In this document: piece by piece, positions 1 to 19,600 of the stretch
Position numbering within the stretch: the first letter of the stretch is position 1
Layout: every line of letters begins with the position of its first letter
Source: a virus
DNA length: 20,950 nucleotides
Direction: 5' to 3' (one strand)
IMG/VR virus record: IMGVR_UViG_3300032282_005642
Location: 1-20,950 of that record
Notes under the pieces: generated by a model
The model's database searches: none
Told to the model about the DNA's origin: nothing
Seen by the model: only the letters and a program-made list of their open reading frames with translations
Translations under genes and position numbers: made by a program

Positions 1-1584
1 CAGGAGGACCAGACCGACTCCGAGATGAAGGGCGCCCTCTTCCTGCTGGCGCTTCGCATCCGCGCACTGGTGCTGACGCTGCCCGAAGGCGGCATCGCCC
101 GCCAAATCGACTACCCCCGCCTGCAGCCGCGCATTATCAACGAGGTCCAAGCCACCTCCAACCGCATCTTTGCGATCCTCCGCACCCGCCTTGAGGGCAT
201 CGAGCGCCTGAGCCTGACTGCCGCCGGCGAGTTGTTTGATGCCGTCCCCCCACAGGGCCGCCCGGTTTCCGTGCTGCTGGAGCAAACCCGTGTGGGCGTC
301 CAAAGCCTGCTGACGCTATTCCGCTACAACGAGCGCCTCGGCAGCTCGGACTTTACGGCCCAGCTAATCCGCCTCCTCGACAAAAGCCTCCAAGTCGAAT
401 TCATCAAGGGCACTCCAACCGATGAGGTAGCGGACAAGGTGGTGGAGGTCCGCATCCGCCGGGGCGAGGAAATCCCCGTTGTGAACAAGGGCAGTGTGGC
501 CAACGGCTGGCGCTTCCGCACCAAGGCGATTGTGGCCGCGGCCTACTGGCAGATCGCATTTAACGCCCAACAGCGCACCGCGGTTGAGGCCGTGCGCGTA
601 ATCGAGGAATGGGAGTGGAGCGCTGTACTGGATCCGAAGACGTGCCCAATCTGCCGCCCGCTGGACGGCGAGCGATCCCCGTACCCAGCGGGATTCCCCC
701 AAGGCCCACCCCCGCTTCATCCAAATTGCGTTTTAGGTGACACGCAAATAACGACCGGTACTTTGATCGCGGCGACTCGCGCCATGTACAGCGGCGACAT
801 CGTGACCATACGAACGGAGAGCGGGCGCAAACTCTCCGTCACAGCGCAGCACCCAATGCTGACCCGCACCGGCTGGGTCCGCGCTTGCGATTTGAGCAAT
901 GGCTTGGATCTGTTTAGCCACCGCAGTGGGGCACCAACCCCTATTGATCTGCCAGACCTCGATGACGCACCAGCCACGGCCGAGCAAATATTCCAAGCGT
1001 TTAGGTCGTCTAGCAGCGTGACGACCACATGCGTGCCAGCCGCCCCCATGCAATTCCACGGCGACGGAGCTTCCGCCCAAGGCAATGTCGAGATTGTATG
1101 GACCGACCGGATACTCAAAGAAACTGTGAATGCCGATTACATCCAACTGCTCTCCAAGTTCCAAAGCGTAGTTACTGATTCCGAGCTGGCGCTCCCATCG
1201 GGTTTGAGCACGACGGATGCGTTCTTCCTCGGAATGAACGCGGCCTCTAGCGGCCTTGTGTGCTTGGTGGAGCAATGCCTTGCGCTCCTCCGAGGTGAGC
1301 TGGGACTGACGGAGCAGCATCGCCTCGCTGCGATTGCGCTGAGTAATCCCACGCTCTCGCAACCTTGCTACGACAACGTTCCTGGCGCAGCCAAATACCT
1401 CGGCCAAGTGCTTGACGCTTGCCCCGGCTTCGTAACGACGGACAAGATCATCGACATTAAGGTTGAGCCTGCGGGACATCCACTGCCGGTGTACGACTTC
1501 ACTACCCTATCAGGCATGTACACCGCAGAAACCCAACTAACCCATAATTGCCGGTGCGTTCTAATCCCGATCTACGGCGATTAG
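1..1584 (+). CDS. Mu gpF-like minor head protein precursor, intein-containing, 5' partial
   Basis: Minor head or head-morphogenesis protein of the phage Mu gpF family, which in known phages associates with the portal during procapsid assembly. The frame is open to base 1, so the true start lies upstream; the first ATG in view is at 25. Residue numbers count from that ATG. The host part carries the family's C-terminal signature: CPIC (residues 207-210), a DGE, a proline-rich stretch, then HPN before the intein and CRC just after it. Joined by splicing this gives the usual HPNCRC, followed by only nine more residues to the stop. A 274-residue intein (residues 235-508) splits the signature between N and C. 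Without it the visible host protein is about 245 residues. The upstream neighbour would be expected to be the portal gene. Family call is from motif recognition, not from a search. Confidence 0.85.
   Translation, partial: QEDQTDSEMKGALFLLALRIRALVLTLPEGGIARQIDYPRLQPRIINEVQATSNRIFAILRTRLEGIERLSLTAAGELFDAVPPQGRPVSVLLEQTRVGVQSLLTLFRYNERLGSSDFTAQLIRLLDKSLQVEFIKGTPTDEVADKVVEVRIRRGEEIPVVNKGSVANGWRFRTKAIVAAAYWQIAFNAQQRTAVEAVRVIEEWEWSAVLDPKTCPICRPLDGERSPYPAGFPQGPPPLHPNCVLGDTQITTGTLIAATRAMYSGDIVTIRTESGRKLSVTAQHPMLTRTGWVRACDLSNGLDLFSHRSGAPTPIDLPDLDDAPATAEQIFQAFRSSSSVTTTCVPAAPMQFHGDGASAQGNVEIVWTDRILKETVNADYIQLLSKFQSVVTDSELALPSGLSTTDAFFLGMNAASSGLVCLVEQCLALLRGELGLTEQHRLAAIALSNPTLSQPCYDNVPGAAKYLGQVLDACPGFVTTDKIIDIKVEPAGHPLPVYDFTTLSGMYTAETQLTHNCRCVLIPIYGD
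727..1548 (+). other. Intein (protein intron), class 1 splice motifs, 274 residues
   Basis: In-frame protein-splicing element. Block A starts with Cys1 (CVLGDTQI). Block B is SVTAQHPMLT, with the TxxH residues at intein positions 39-42. Block F is the VYDFTT...GMYTA region around residues 254-266. Block G ends in THN with terminal Asn274, and the first extein residue is Cys. This is a complete set of splice residues, so the element is probably active. Between blocks B and F lie about 200 residues with no visible in-frame LAGLIDADG or HNH nuclease. An FHGDG motif sits at intein residues 110-114; I recall this motif from other phage and cyanobacterial inteins, but did not search. The insertion point is the most conserved part of the host gene, as is usual for homing elements. 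The opposite strand carries a nuclease gene over residues 3-251. Confidence 0.93.
733..1479 (-). CDS. Antisense Vsr/DUF559-like homing endonuclease nested in the intein
   Basis: Predicted 248-residue DNA endonuclease on the strand opposite the intein. Residues about 10-45 form a helix-turn-helix (DLVRRYEAGASVKHLAEVFG...VVVARLRERGI) followed by a basic NRSEAM segment, as in recombinase-type DNA-binding domains. Residues 126-176 form a PD-(D/E)xK/Vsr-like core: GPYNLDIAL with Asp131, VAVELHGGGWH with Glu142 and His149, then GRH, an R/K-rich helix and LLGRGWCVIEVW, the usual last strand. HTH plus Vsr-like core suits a homing enzyme acting on the intein-free head gene. The stop codon TAA is the complement of the intein's third codon (TTA, 733-735). 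ATG at 1477-1479 is the only good start before an upstream stop at 1507-1509; no clear ribosome site or promoter is visible. Codons are exactly aligned with those of the intein. Role in homing is inferred from domains and location. Confidence 0.82.
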   Translation of the reverse strand: MSRRLNLNVDDLVRRYEAGASVKHLAEVFGCARNVVVARLRERGITQRNRSEAMLLRQSQLTSEERKALLHQAHKAARGRVHSEEERIRRAQTRWERQLGISNYALELGEQLDVIGIHSFFEYPVGPYNLDIALGGSSVAVELHGGGWHACGRHAARRPKRLEYLLGRGWCVIEVWQINRGWCPTAVAKQIQAIAQIASADPAGAGQHWVLRCDGEFAPALRSYGHDVAAVHGASRRDQSTGRYLRVT

Positions 1585-1786: not shown

Positions 1787-1808
1787 GGTCCCCTCAAGTA
1801 CTACTAAA

Positions 1809-1838
1809 GGGGTAACCTAGGAGGGTACAAGTTACCCC
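1809..1838 (+). promoter_or_regulatory. Hairpin with ribosome-binding site in its loop before the scaffold gene
   Basis: GGGGTAAC (1809-1816) pairs perfectly with GTTACCCC (1831-1838), leaving a 14-base loop. The loop holds AGGAGG (1819-1824), the only near-perfect Shine-Dalgarno sequence I noticed before a gene here. The AGGAGG ends 21 bases before ATG 1846, too far for normal initiation unless the hairpin shortens the distance. The left arm overlaps one copy of the GGNAACCTAG motif. Confidence 0.55.
1811..1820 (+). promoter_or_regulatory. GGNAACCTAG start-associated motif, copy A
   Basis: GGTAACCTAG, ending 25 bases before the scaffold start at 1846. One of nine copies of a motif seen only before gene starts in this window. 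Confidence 0.55.
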
Positions 1839-1845
1839 CGACCTC

Positions 1846-2574
1846 ATGTCCGAGCAGGTCATGGGTGCTCCTTCTGTGGAGGAGCAAGTTGAGCCGGTGG
1901 CTCAGCAACCCGCCCCCCAGTCCACTGATGATGCTTCTGCCCTTCGCAAGAAGCTGGAGCTTGTCCAACAGGACAACCTGGCCAAAGGCGAAGCAAACCG
2001 CAAGCTCAACGAGCGTGTGGGCGAGGCAGAAAAACTCATCCGGGACTTAGAGACCCGCCTCAAGACCACCCATCAGCAGCAACGCGCCGACCAAGGCGAG
2101 TTCAAAACGCTGTGGGAGGAAGCCAATGCCGACAATGCCCGCCTGCAGCAACGCATCGTCGAGCTTGAAGCCGCGCTTCAGGCCAAAGACAGTGAAGCAG
2201 CGCAGGAACGCCTCCGAGCCACGGCCCTTCAACAAATCAGCCAAGCCAACGCGCTTGCCCCCGAGCAACTGCTCGGACTGTTGAAACCGCAACTCCGAGA
2301 CAACAACGGCGTCCCCGTCGTCATCGTCAACGGCATCGAGCAACCTCTCGCCGCCCACCTGGCCAACTTGAAAAATTCCGGCTCCGGCTGGGACCATCAT
2401 TTTGCAGCCACTGGTGCCCGCGGCATGGGCAGTACCCCCAGCAGCAACGTCCCCCCTGGAGTTGTGAACCCCTACAAAAAGGGCGACACTTTTAACTTCA
2501 CGGAGCAGTTGCGCCTTGAGGTCGAAAACCCTGAGCTGGCACGCCTCCTCAAGAGCGAAGCCACTCGCGGGTAA
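1846..2574 (+). CDS. Scaffold-like coiled-coil protein
   Basis: A 242-residue acidic protein placed just before the major capsid gene, where tailed phages normally encode the scaffold that guides procapsid assembly. Residues about 1-30 are Pro/Gln/Glu-rich and disordered. Residues about 32-125 form a long charged heptad-type coiled coil (LRKKLELVQQDN...LEAALQAKDSE). Then follows a segment with QISQANALAPEQLLGLLKPQL and a VPVVIVNG turn, and a C-terminal tail ending EVENPELARLLKSEATRG, which could bind the capsid. This layout resembles gp20-type phage scaffold or minor structural proteins. ATG 1846 is the only standard start codon I see in frame; a hairpin with an embedded Shine-Dalgarno lies upstream. 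Function is inferred from layout and position, with no catalytic motif. Confidence 0.75.
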   Translation: MSEQVMGAPSVEEQVEPVAQQPAPQSTDDASALRKKLELVQQDNLAKGEANRKLNERVGEAEKLIRDLETRLKTTHQQQRADQGEFKTLWEEANADNARLQQRIVELEAALQAKDSEAAQERLRATALQQISQANALAPEQLLGLLKPQLRDNNGVPVVIVNGIEQPLAAHLANLKNSGSGWDHHFAATGARGMGSTPSSNVPPGVVNPYKKGDTFNFTEQLRLEVENPELARLLKSEATRG

Positions 2575-4319: not shown

Positions 4320-4348
4320 CCCATGTACCTTATTGTGTGGTACATGGG
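4320..4348 (+). promoter_or_regulatory. Perfect 10-bp inverted repeat over the sigma-gene start codons
   Basis: CCCATGTACC (4320-4329) and GGTACATGGG (4339-4348) are exact inverse complements separated by 9 bases. The left arm contains ATG 4323 and the right arm contains ATG 4344, both in frame with the sigma-like gene. As DNA it could be an operator for a dimer; as RNA it would be a hairpin hiding both start codons. Confidence 0.65.
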
Positions 4349-4865
4349 AAAGACCGGCCGCCCCAAAACCGGATATTTAGCGACGCCACTTAGCGGTGAC
4401 GAACAACGCCGCGTGGGACGTTTATACCGCGAGCACCAGGGCATCATCAAACTGATGGGCCGCAAGATGTGCCGCAAGTATCCCTACGTCGCCTTCGACG
4501 ACTTATTCAGCTGCATCGACATCGCCTTCATCAAAACCTGCCGCGCCTGGGACCCCAAGAAAGGCACATTCTCCACACTGCTGACTGTCTTTTCCGAAGG
4601 AGAAATCCGCCACTTCATCCGCGACCACAACTGGCTGGTGAAGGCCCCCGGCACTGTCCGCACGCTGGGGCAACGCGCCCGCCACATGCTGAACCGCGGC
4701 GAACGCATGGAAGACGTACTGGAGCACCTTGGCGTCAGCGAGAAAAAATTGAAAGAAGCCCTGATGGCCACCTGTCCAACAGACCATGAGATCAAGGGCT
4801 TTGAATTACATGTGTGCCCCCGCCCCACACCATGGGATGTGCTGGAGCGCGAAGAATGTGCATAG
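4323..4865 (+). CDS. Sigma-70-like factor, regions 2 and 3 only
   Basis: A 180-residue RNA polymerase sigma-like protein (173 residues if ATG 4344 is used). Residues 54-108 match sigma region 2: YPYVAFDDLFSCIDIAFIK, then CRAWDPKKGTFSTLL, then SEGEIRHFIRDHNWLVKAP. This is the layout of core-binding and -10-recognition helices in group 3 sigma factors of the SigB/SigF kind. Residues about 112-147 (VRTLGQRARHML...VLEHLGVSEKKLKEAL) look like region 3. No region 4, the -35-binding domain, follows, so it may read extended -10 promoters or need a partner. The C-terminus has three Cys residues (151, 165, 179). It sits between connector and tail-tube genes, which would suit a late-gene sigma that feeds back on the structural operon. 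Target promoters are unknown; GGNAACCTAG copies are candidates. Confidence 0.8.
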   Translation: MYLIVWYMGKTGRPKTGYLATPLSGDEQRRVGRLYREHQGIIKLMGRKMCRKYPYVAFDDLFSCIDIAFIKTCRAWDPKKGTFSTLLTVFSEGEIRHFIRDHNWLVKAPGTVRTLGQRARHMLNRGERMEDVLEHLGVSEKKLKEALMATCPTDHEIKGFELHVCPRPTPWDVLEREECA

Positions 4866-16850: not shown

Positions 16851-17198
16851 ATGAACCCAGGCACCTACAACATCCGCCCCCAACGCCGCGCTGACTACCA
16901 GCTGAACTTGACGTTCAAGACCAGCGAGGGCGACCCCATCGACCTGAGCAACTACCAAGTGCTGGCGCAGGTCTGGGACAAGTGCCGCACGGAAAAATAC
17001 GGCGACTTCAGCGTTGATACCGCAGACGAGGCCGAGGGCAATGTGGTGCTGACGTTGAGCTACGAGATGACCGAGGTATTGCCAAATGAGGCGTACTACG
17101 ACGTGATGCTGATCAGCGAAATCGATGGTTTGCGGACCTACTACCTAGAAGGAATTGTGCGCCCCAGCCAGGGCTACACAGAGCCTGAGGTGGTCTGA
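16851..17198 (+). CDS. BppU-N-like beta-sandwich tail or baseplate protein
   Basis: A 115-residue protein with the pattern of the N-terminal domain of phage baseplate upper proteins, which attaches fibres to the tail tip. It shows [20 protein letters not shown], then [19 protein letters not shown], a [20 protein letters not shown] segment and a last strand [19 protein letters not shown]. The polar start, the DLSNYxVxAQV strand and the LSxxxTxxLPxxxYxYDV loop are typical of these domains. Its TGA overlaps the ATG of the collagen-like fibre gene (TGATG), which supports a role as fibre adaptor. Confidence 0.6.
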
Positions 17199-19600
17199 TG
17201 TCGGATATTTTCATCAACGTCGAGCCTCAGGAGACTGAGGTTGTCGTTAGCGAGATTCAGGCCAACGTCATTGAACTGTCGGTCCCAGGGCCGGAGGTCA
17301 TTGAGGTCAACACCCCCGGCAAAACGGGTGCAACGGGTGCCACCGGACCCATCGGCATCACCGGGGCAACTGGTGCATCCGGCACCCCCGGCACCAACGG
17401 CCAAACCGGCGCCACCGGCGTAACAGGCCCCACAGGCGTAACGGGCCCCACCGGCCCCCAAGGCAGCACTGGAGCAACGGGGCCTCAAGGCAGCACAGGT
17501 CTCCAAGGCCCTACGGGTCTGACGGGTCAGCGTGGTGCCACCGGCATCCAGGGTTCAACTGGTGTACGCGGCAGCACAGGCCCCACGGGTGTCACGGGCC
17601 CCACTGGTGCCATCGGCCCCCGCGGCTCTACAGGCGCAACAGGTTTTACAGGCCCCCAAGGCACCACCGGCCCCACTGGTGTCGCAGGTCCCACCGGTGC
17701 CACTGGCCCTGAAGGCGAGCTTGGAGCAACTGGTCCTCGGGGTGCCACAGGCGTTGAAGGCCCAACCGGTGCCCGCGGTGAAACCGGCCCTACCGGTTTA
17801 AGCGGCCCCACTGGCCCCCAAGGCATCCAAGGCGCCACGGGCCTTCGCGGTAGCACAGGTGTTACAGGCGCCACCGGCCCGCGTGGTGCAACTGGTGCAT
17901 CGGGCATCATCGGCCAAAGCGGTGCCACCGGCTCCGCCGGCCCCCAAGGCATCACCGGCCCTACAGGTCCTACGGGCCCGCTTGGTGCAACTGGAGCAAC
18001 AGGCCCCGTTGGTGCCAGCGGTCCTCAGGGTATTCCGGGGCTGGGCATCACGTTCAAGGGCTCTGTTGCCAGCATCGGCGACTTACCCATTCCTGCGGAT
18101 CAGGGCGATGCCTACATCGTCCAAGCCGACGACAGCTTTTGGGTTTACGACACTGTTGACGGCTGGGTCAATGGCGGCTCCATCCAAGGCCCCATGGGTG
18201 CCACAGGTCCCATCGGCGAAACCGGCCCGATTGGGCCTACGGGTCCTGAAGGCCCTACAGGTCCAAGCGGGGTTGATGGTATTACAGGTGCCACCGGCCC
18301 TGAAGGCAGCACTGGAGCAACTGGCCCTCTAGGCGAAACGGGACCAACCGGTCTGCCAGGCGCAGTTGGTGCCACAGGAGCCACGGGTCCAGAAGGTATC
18401 GCCGGTGCAACGGGTCCTATTGGTATTACTGGCCCTATCGGCCAAACCGGTGCAACAGGTCCAGCAGGCCCCTCCGGCGCTGGTGCCACAGGTGCTACGG
18501 GCCCTGCTGGTGCTGGCGGTGCCCTCGGCTACTGGGGCAGTTTCTATGACACCACCACACAAAATGCTGCCAGCGCCAACACTGCTTATGCCGTAGCGAT
18601 TGGCAGCTCTGATCCAGCCAGCAATGGCGTCAGCATCACCAGCGGTACCCGCGTCACCTTCGCAAATGCTGGTGTTTACAGCGTCACCTACTCAATCCAG
18701 CTGGTCAACTCAGACACTCAGATCCACGATGCCAACATCTGGCTGCGCAAAAACGACAGTGGTAGTGCCGGCGACGTACCTGATACCGATAGCCGCTTCA
18801 GTGTTCCCAACAAGCATGGCGGCGTAAACGGCAACTTGATTGCCACCGTCAACTACGTGGTGTCCTTGGCAGCCGGCGACTATCTGGAGTTGATCTGGTC
18901 CACTACCAGCACCCAGATTTTCCTCGGCGCCTTCGCTGCTGGAACCGCCCCCACCAGCCCCAGCATCCCCAGCGTGATCATCACCGCCACCCAGGTGATG
19001 TACACCCAACTGGGTCCCAGCGGTGCAACAGGCGCCGTCGGTGCAACAGGCGCCACCGGACCCATTGGCATCACCGGTGCCACCGGCATCCAGGGCCCCG
19101 TAGGCGCTACGGGCCCCATTGGCATTACGGGCGCCACAGGCGCAGTAGGCATAACAGGCGCTACAGGCCCGATTGGCGCCACGGGCGCAACAGGCGTTGC
19201 CGGCTATTCAGTTCTCAGCGGCGCTGGAGCACCAGCCGCAGGAACCGGTGTCAACGGCGATTTCTATATCGACACCACTGCCAATACCATCTACGGCCCT
19301 AAAACAACCGGTGCTTGGGGATCACCCACAAGTCTCGTAGGCCCAACTGGAGCTACGGGCCCGATAGGTATTACAGGAGCCACCGGCCCCCAAGGCACTG
19401 CTGGTGTGACTGGAGCAACCGGACCTCAAGGTGCTACCGGCGTTGGGACTGTATACCCTGCCTCTGAGACCAAACAGGTAATTGCAGAGAACTACACTAT
19501 CAGCACCGGATTTAATGCCATATCAGTTAGCCCCGTAGAAGTGGCGGCAACTTATGCTGTAACAGTACCAGCAGGCGCTGTTTGGCTCATCGCCGTTTAA
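17198..19600 (+). CDS. Collagen-like tail fibre with C1q-like domain
   Basis: An 800-residue fibre protein with long Gly-X-Y repeats that should form a collagen-like triple helix. Layout by residue: 1-40 attachment segment; 41-282 Gly-X-Y repeats dominated by GATG and GPTG; 283-330 a small folded insert ([12 protein letters not shown]...[17 protein letters not shown]); 331-440 more Gly-X-Y; 444-603 a jelly-roll domain resembling C1q/TNF (YWGSFYD...[12 protein letters not shown]...[11 protein letters not shown]); 607-669 and 715-749 further collagen runs separated by a [19 protein letters not shown] insert; 750-800 a beta-rich tip. X and Y positions favour Thr, Ala, Ile and Pro, so stability would not depend on hydroxyproline. 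The folded inserts likely act as trimerisation or receptor-binding heads. Confidence 0.93.
17324..19447 (+). repeat. Gly-X-Y coding repeat tracts
   Basis: Degenerate 9-base units (such as GGTGCAACG and GGCCCCACC) encode Gly-X-Y triplets in four blocks within the fibre gene. Synonymous codons vary strongly between units, which limits recombination between them. The tracts produce many spurious open frames on the minus strand. Confidence 0.85.

Follow-up and report, generated by a model that had tools for sequence, protein, structure and literature searches.

The window, that is, the whole stretch of DNA analyzed here, is an IMG/VR virus record of 20,950 bases, and near its start lies a gene for a Mu-F-like minor head protein that is interrupted in frame by an intein (Table 1). 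The strand opposite the intein carries a second ORF, encoding a nuclease of the Vsr/EDxHD type. The codons of the two proteins share their boundaries, and sense position 1 is antisense position 3. Elsewhere in the window, a Sigma-70 region 2-like protein (4323-4865, plus strand; Pfam, 9.2e-6) is encoded within the structural gene cluster, and a long collagen-repeat protein is encoded at 17198-19600 (plus strand; Pfam Collagen, 5.7e-61).

Table 1. Features of the interrupted head gene and of the ORF on its opposite strand, in window coordinates
Feature	Coordinates	Strand	Basis
Mu-F-like minor head protein gene with in-frame intein interruption	25..1584	+	Pfam PF04233, 2.9e-8; Intein_splicing, 6e-5; phrog_15127, 2.7e-26
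Intein, 274 aa, Cys1 to His273-Asn274, then +1 Cys	727..1548	+	Translation; Hint fold, VIA Z of ~12
Hint N-part, blocks A and B, residues 1-67	727..927	+	pLDDT; family-wide p1/p3 of 0.58-0.94
Second sense-conserved element, residues 84-91, IExxF-type helix	976..999	+	Sense residue excess
FHGDG, residues 110-114, read as a dual-coded site; Phe codon opposite catalytic Glu142	1054..1068	+	
V-E-I-V-W, residues 121-125, opposite nuclease P127-Y128-N129-L130-D131; largely nuclease shadow	1087..1101	+	
Intein middle, residues 129-224, predicted to be disordered; faces HTH, linker and beginning of nuclease domain	1111..1398	+	
Hint C-part, residues 235-274, blocks F and G	1429..1548	+	pLDDT of 88-97 from residue 241
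Antisense nuclease ORF, 248 aa, ATG at 1479	733..1479	-	
Helix-turn-helix (HTH), nuclease residues 9-45	1345..1455	-	phrog_664, 4.5e-9 over 11-103; Pfam HTH_58, 0.0023; fold matches
Vsr/EDxHD-like nuclease domain, residues 100-200, with D131 and E142	880..1182	-	Fold and profile matches

The translation of the window intein contained Cys1, T39..H42 in block B, VYDF in block F, and His273-Asn274 followed by a Cys at +1. In the model of the sense reading, the Hint ends matched many solved inteins (Z of ~12), and the comparison indicates that the Hint fold of class 1 inteins is present. The residues of class 1 inteins recurred in the family. Simple motif rules delimited 157 of 172 inteins, and their +1 residue was Cys in 145, Ser in 10 and Thr in 2, counts that depend on boundaries picked by Cys1 and the terminal Asn; in about 12 of the 157, among the rows with Ser or Thr, the end is doubtful or a few residues early, which affects the ends only. 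Block B was conserved at T39 (.99) and H42 (1.00; redundancy weighted). In the window model, pLDDT was 88 to 97 up to residue 60 and 73 over residues 61 to 70. It was 71 to 91 in blocks of residues 83 to 128, a level that for the sense accessory element may borrow covariation from the nuclease on the shared DNA. Over residues 129 to 224 the 10-residue means were 33 to 55, and on this model that sense stretch looks like a shadow of the nuclease.

The nuclease was examined in the same way. Taken alone, the window protein matched a Vsr/MTES_1575-type domain (Pfam, 6e-4). Among 70 family members, 57 matched MTES_1575 and 17 matched DUF559, and the profile of these 70 members found, in the PDB, 3hrl at 1.5e-7 and, at 4.8e-6, 3r3p, which is the homing endonuclease I-Bth0305I. 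The AlphaFold2 model had a mean pLDDT of 88.6, with values of ~95 for most of residues 11 to 200 and ~50 for residues 221 to 248, which lie opposite the intein start. Compared with known structures, the model matched Vsr (1cw0) with a VIA Z of 11.6 over 114 residues at 2.4 A, 3hrl with a Z of 10.1, and 3r3p with a Z of 10.0 over 96 aa at 3.0 A. The mitochondrial ribosome chains 9i05 and 9g6k scored close to these named nucleases (Z of 9.2 to 9.7) and, by inference from the model comparison, probably represent the same fold reused. Lectin chains of the PDB matched the C-terminal part of the nuclease in single stretches of ~12 bits; they were absent from the profile search and were rejected as chance matches. 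Conservation in the family (redundancy weighted) was.96 at E105, 1.00 at D131,.99 at E142 and.73 at H149, which are candidate counterparts of the E, D, H and D active-site residues of I-Bth0305I. The invariance of YNxD is partly by construction, because YNxD was among the locus search patterns.

The HTH is an added DNA-binding module in this EDxHD/Vsr-like nuclease, as indicated by the phrog_664 match and by fold matches of model residues 1 to 48, among them resolvase and GcrA DNA-binding domains. Nuclease variants (L270, L272, L274, L277 and L360) had repeated HTH-like units or, in REQ3 (L360), no HTH match. The variation suggests changing target recognition.

In tblastn searches, nuclease relatives were found in 132 phage records and intein relatives in 114, and many of the two kinds of matches lay at the same place on opposite strands. 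The hosts of the phage loci included Salmonella, Escherichia, Klebsiella, Pseudomonas, Vibrio, Gordonia, Mycobacterium and Rhodococcus, and bacterial contigs, Chloroflexota included, also carried loci. A long opposite ORF in codon-aligned phase was present in all 257 loci gathered by nuclease similarity from IMG/VR scans, one genome per species and a few phage records. These loci are related and so do not represent separate events; some contigs are represented repeatedly, the unique nuclease proteins number 173, and seven duplicate loci (L001-L003 and L005-L008) were dropped in compiling the set. In the 157 delimited inteins, the antisense frame was open over a median of 95% and a minimum of 85% of the length. 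A scan from the intein side, with the N-part from residue 1 to FHGDG, gave the same picture: in the best 80 of 579 confirmed loci, the opposite strand encoded the nuclease in 80 of 80 (117 to 316 bits). The earlier note on this DNA had suggested that a search for FHGDG inteins could reveal hidden nucleases, and these loci bear it out. The antisense nuclease was annotated in none of 17 annotated intein-family loci examined, among them one from a PLSDB plasmid whose gene table is incomplete.

A nuclease-less intein that could serve as a control was not found among these best 80 of 579 loci. Because all 80 inteins carry the nuclease, the control is limited to one free-standing nuclease (n = 1), that of the Acinetobacter phage BUCT629 (L269, 1288-2220, plus strand; L278, 2890-3783, plus strand), whose gene is also the sole annotated relative. 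This family member (143 bits) stands alone without an intein and adjoins, on the opposite strand, a whole, intein-less Mu-F gene (profile positions 1 to 110 of 112), and the strand opposite the nuclease itself is full of stops.

When blocks A and B alone were used in tblastn, divergent inteins were obtained, and four were examined. REQ3 and BEU35 had a Vsr-type antisense nuclease, whereas Nordenberg and Barsten lacked it but had another antisense ORF. In the Escherichia phages KMB36 and BEU35 (L268 and L362), the divergent composite intein has the sense motif FYGDG and is inserted at another point of the head gene than that of Snoke. In the virus Rctr197k (L274, 619-1968, minus strand), an FHGDG intein with an antisense nuclease interrupts a deoxycytidylate-deaminase-like gene and not a head gene.

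Codon-aligned complementarity and G+C content could leave an antisense ORF open by accident, with the intein alone under selection. In a chance control, the antisense frame was open in 25 of 135 upstream 200-codon extein windows, so an open frame by itself is weak evidence. The same ORF, however, combines HTH and nuclease homology with a confident predicted fold, it has a free-standing relative, and it leaves marks in the codons. The codons TTA, CTA and TCA, which read as antisense stops, occurred 97 times among 41,647 interior intein codons, whereas the Leu/Ser content and the codon usage of the exteins predict 907. These marks, together with the substitution pattern and the block F codon bias described below, make an accident extremely improbable. 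That the antisense nuclease is real and family-wide, as first proposed from the window sequence, is upheld by its presence in 257 of 257 loci, its homology and predicted fold, and its codon-position signature.

For the codon-position comparison, 42 disjoint, moderately diverged pairs were picked for aligned length from 172 unique loci, and the number of substitutions at sense position 1, which is the wobble position of the antisense frame, was divided by that at sense position 3 (p1/p3). The ratio was 0.73 in the N-extein and 0.64 in the C-extein. In the intein ends outside the nuclease it was 0.58 before the nuclease end and 0.66 in block F, and over the nuclease C-terminus and block B it was 0.77 to 0.94. 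In the intein middle it rose to 1.42 opposite the nuclease domain, 1.48 opposite the linker and 1.29 opposite the HTH. Position 1 exceeded position 3 in 40 of 42 pairs in the middle versus 6 of 41 in the N-extein. Therefore, the splicing ends evolve as a sense protein and the middle evolves as an antisense protein. The shadow also falls the other way: VIRGDG, a conserved sequence in the nuclease tail, lies on the complement of LTVTPNH in intein block B, where the conserved residue is the sense one. Among the closest relatives of the window, antisense residues were more conserved than sense residues over residues 72 to 251; between the window and L017, conservation opposite the HTH was.82 for antisense and.63 for sense. 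Blocks A and B of the nearest relatives gave 23, 7 and 19 and 24, 6 and 17 differences at positions 1, 2 and 3, with no clean sense signature.

Block F was also marked by the opposite strand. A TGGAGGT-like sequence often lay upstream of the antisense ATG and is the complement of HVYDLQ in block F. A Shine-Dalgarno 4-mer preceded 53 of 118 candidate start ATGs (a candidate was found in 118 of 172 loci) versus 37 of 411 internal ATGs. In the 91 of 157 inteins having the block F motif, His was CAT in 80 of 91 (181 of 454 in the extein) and Leu was CTC or CTT in 86 of 91 (600 of 1,707 in the extein). This skew yields an antisense ATG and GAG or AAG, as an antisense start needs. The codon bias thus shows that, in many members, the start codon of the nuclease and part of its Shine-Dalgarno sequence lie within block F; many loci, the window included, have no clear Shine-Dalgarno sequence.

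We then considered whose conservation FHGDG represents. Its sense codons are TTC CAC GGC GAC GGA, and the reverse strand reads V-A-V-E-L, with Glu142 (GAA) opposite Phe110 (TTC). The codons and their shared boundaries thus confirm the reported pairing of the catalytic Glu with Phe110. The neighboring GNVEIVW (1081-1101) lies opposite P127-Y128-N129-L130-D131-I132-A133 of the nuclease. The full motif FHGDG occurred in 78 of the 157 inteins, and [FL]xG[DE] occurred in 152. The earlier note had suggested that the conservation of FHGDG and of the nearby VxxV may come from the nuclease instead of the intein. On that account, FHGDG would merely mirror the active site of the nuclease, with no function in the intein; the predicted disorder of the intein middle is in line with it, and two further observations agree. 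In 163 unique sequences, the codon opposite the catalytic Glu was TTC in 128, CTC in 34, ATC in 1 and never TTT, because the Glu demands it. In addition, YNxD explains VxxV: when expectation is computed from the residue seen in the nuclease and from its own codon usage (redundancy weighted), the expected and observed frequencies were.55 and.67 for V121,.43 and.52 for I123, and.68 and.79 for V124, so that VxxV is mostly predicted by the nuclease, as had been suggested.

The rest of the motif did not follow this account. By the same calculation, the expected and observed frequencies were.51 and.79 for F110,.22 and.85 for H111 (z of 20),.47 and.97 for G112,.53 and.94 for D113, and.27 and.60 for G114, with H111 to G114 above the nuclease prediction at z of 9 to 20. 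The excesses at H111, G112 and D113 were the largest three of 172 tested columns, and they persisted in every subset tested (A1+A4 scans only, under 45% identity, and GC under 50%), H111 ranking first, G112 second and D113 third to fifth in all four sets. In the single free-standing case, BUCT629, the codons opposite the Glu read F-Q-R-H and not F-H-G-D, that is, HGD is absent. The suggested comparison of sense and antisense codon positions gave a mixed outcome, the middle being of the antisense type while at Gly114 sense position 1 is nearly fixed and the antisense residue is free. From the codon-usage excess and BUCT629, it follows that Phe and VxxV are mainly due to the nuclease and HGDG is mainly due to the intein. 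The attribution to the nuclease therefore stands for Phe and VxxV and is not supported for His-Gly-Asp-Gly, and a pure shadow is very unlikely.

The excess test cannot separate bases from amino acids, so the excess at HGDG could instead lie at the nucleotide level, for example, in a binding site or an expression signal. D113 position 1 was G in 163 of 163 sequences and GGC dominated G112, as such a signal would have it. Against this, the D113 codon was GAC, GAT or GAG, which keeps Asp or Glu, codon 114 mostly encoded Gly or Ala and varied freely at its third base, and an excess was also found at sense residues 85, 86 and 89, where the sense residue was commoner than the nuclease predicts (z of 8.8 to 9.8). 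A nucleotide signal is thus unlikely, less so than the other alternatives, and HGDG is likelier to be an intein feature. As judged from sequence comparison, FHGDG is a dual-coded site where the constraints of intein and nuclease meet. Residues 84 to 91 and FHGDG may form an accessory module of these inteins that has gone unrecognized.

The joined flanks of two inteins were compared with phage records. For the Snoke intein, one place covered at least 80% of the joined flanks in 139 of 171 records, and for the Fosterous intein this was so in 75 of 145. The best joined-flank matches were in one piece, with 97.4% identity in Geodirt, and in intein-less phages the head gene was contiguous across the insertion site. 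These one-place matches indicate that empty sites are common in close relatives. Such abundant empty sites also provide a target in competitors, and the nuclease might serve primarily not in homing but, for example, in keeping out rival phages through cuts in their intein-less head genes. The same cut would, however, also drive homing, and the nuclease and the splicing element occur together in all 257 loci. We regard a primary role other than homing as quite unlikely.

A second case was found in Gordonia phages. In Nordenberg and Barsten, another intein, of 275 aa (L359, 1687-2511, plus strand; L361, same coordinates; Hint_2, 1.3e-6), follows VAPHEVIN|C, the same site as in Fosterous. Its opposite strand has a codon-aligned ORF of 196 aa (1801-2388, minus strand), which matched phrog_5046 'HNH endonuclease' (2.2e-15) and a cyanophage PP DNA endonuclease (2e-6), I-MsoI only at 0.0013 overall, and no Pfam family; it contains a motif that we take to be LAGLIDADG. 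Nine Gordonia records carried this ORF, and no relatives were found in viral_contigs. Between Nordenberg and Barsten, the differences at sense positions 1, 2 and 3 were 51, 6 and 16 over the antisense ORF. The remaining parts of the intein gave 4, 4 and 15 and 8, 13 and 19, and the exteins gave 6, 3 and 31 (upstream) and 5, 2 and 17; the codon-position flip thus recurs here. This nuclease is unrelated to the first. Either the antisense nuclease-in-intein arrangement has at least two origins or a second nuclease entered a second intein likewise.

Bifunctional inteins contain a LAGLIDADG or HNH endonuclease domain in frame, as in TliVMA (7qsu) and PI-PfuI (1dq3). The present elements resemble them in that an endonuclease region divides the Hint domain, the insertion keeps the frame of the host gene and empty-site alleles exist, and they differ in that the nuclease is on the opposite strand, has its own start codon and lies outside the intein protein. 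Dassa and coworkers reportedly described in 2009, as 'fractured genes', split inteins with a Vsr-like endonuclease ORF between the halves. Both systems associate an intein with a Vsr-like nuclease; here, the nuclease overlaps an unsplit intein in antisense. I-Bth0305I, an EDxHD homing endonuclease (3r3p) that shares the Vsr-like domain, is the protein of a phage mobile intron (PMC3943268), whereas the gene described here is antisense to the coding sequence of an intein. Antisense homing endonuclease genes are known in nuclear group I introns of Didymium (PMC9548176), which likewise hold a reverse-oriented homing nuclease gene inside a self-splicing element. The gene there lies in the peripheral RNA segment P9.2 of an rRNA intron and its other strand is not protein coding, whereas in the window family both strands encode protein over nearly the whole element. 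Removal as RNA, a trait of group I introns, does not fit a long sense frame opposite the nuclease in 257 of 257 loci and ends under sense selection. In a search of open-access literature, neither an antisense nuclease in an intein nor a paper on FHGDG was found, and a term search of a paper on mycobacteriophage inteins (PMC5050341) gave no occurrence of antisense, overlap or opposite.

Altogether, we consider with a probability of about 0.9 that the locus is a composite mobile element in which two unrelated proteins, an intein and an antisense nuclease, are encoded in register on opposite strands of one DNA. Read within the host head gene, the sense strand is an intein expected to splice itself out, and the antisense strand is a separate gene for an HTH and Vsr/EDxHD-type nuclease. 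The nuclease would be expected to cut the intein-less host gene, and repair would copy the whole element, that is, homing. Codon-position divergence shows that sense selection maintains the splicing blocks, while the middle is held mainly by antisense selection. Block F has the nuclease start codon and part of the ribosome site in many members, the catalytic Glu dictates Phe, and the intein would dictate Asp-Gly and much of His-Gly, with HGDG probably within a small accessory element beside the Hint domain.

More tentatively, and at somewhat below even odds, antisense nesting may be a recurrent route to nuclease-bearing inteins, with at least two origins, in which the overlap locks both genes and slows the loss of the nuclease. 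The homing cycle usually ends in loss of the endonuclease. Because HGDG is opposite VAVE and block F is opposite the Shine-Dalgarno sequence and start, mutations that kill the nuclease would tend to damage splicing, and such locking would explain why no nuclease-less member was among those gathered. If recurrent nesting is true, codon-aligned reversal fits a whole nuclease gene opposite a dispensable intein middle. Since the laboratory phages Snoke (an Escherichia phage), Jersey and Fosterous carry the element, homing, splicing and locking are open to direct test. The arrangement changes the annotation of inteins 'without a known domain' and would mean that a single piece of DNA can hold both halves of a mobile element in a manner so far overlooked. 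With two unrelated folds in the same codons and opposite substitution signatures, it also bears on the function of long antisense overlapping genes.
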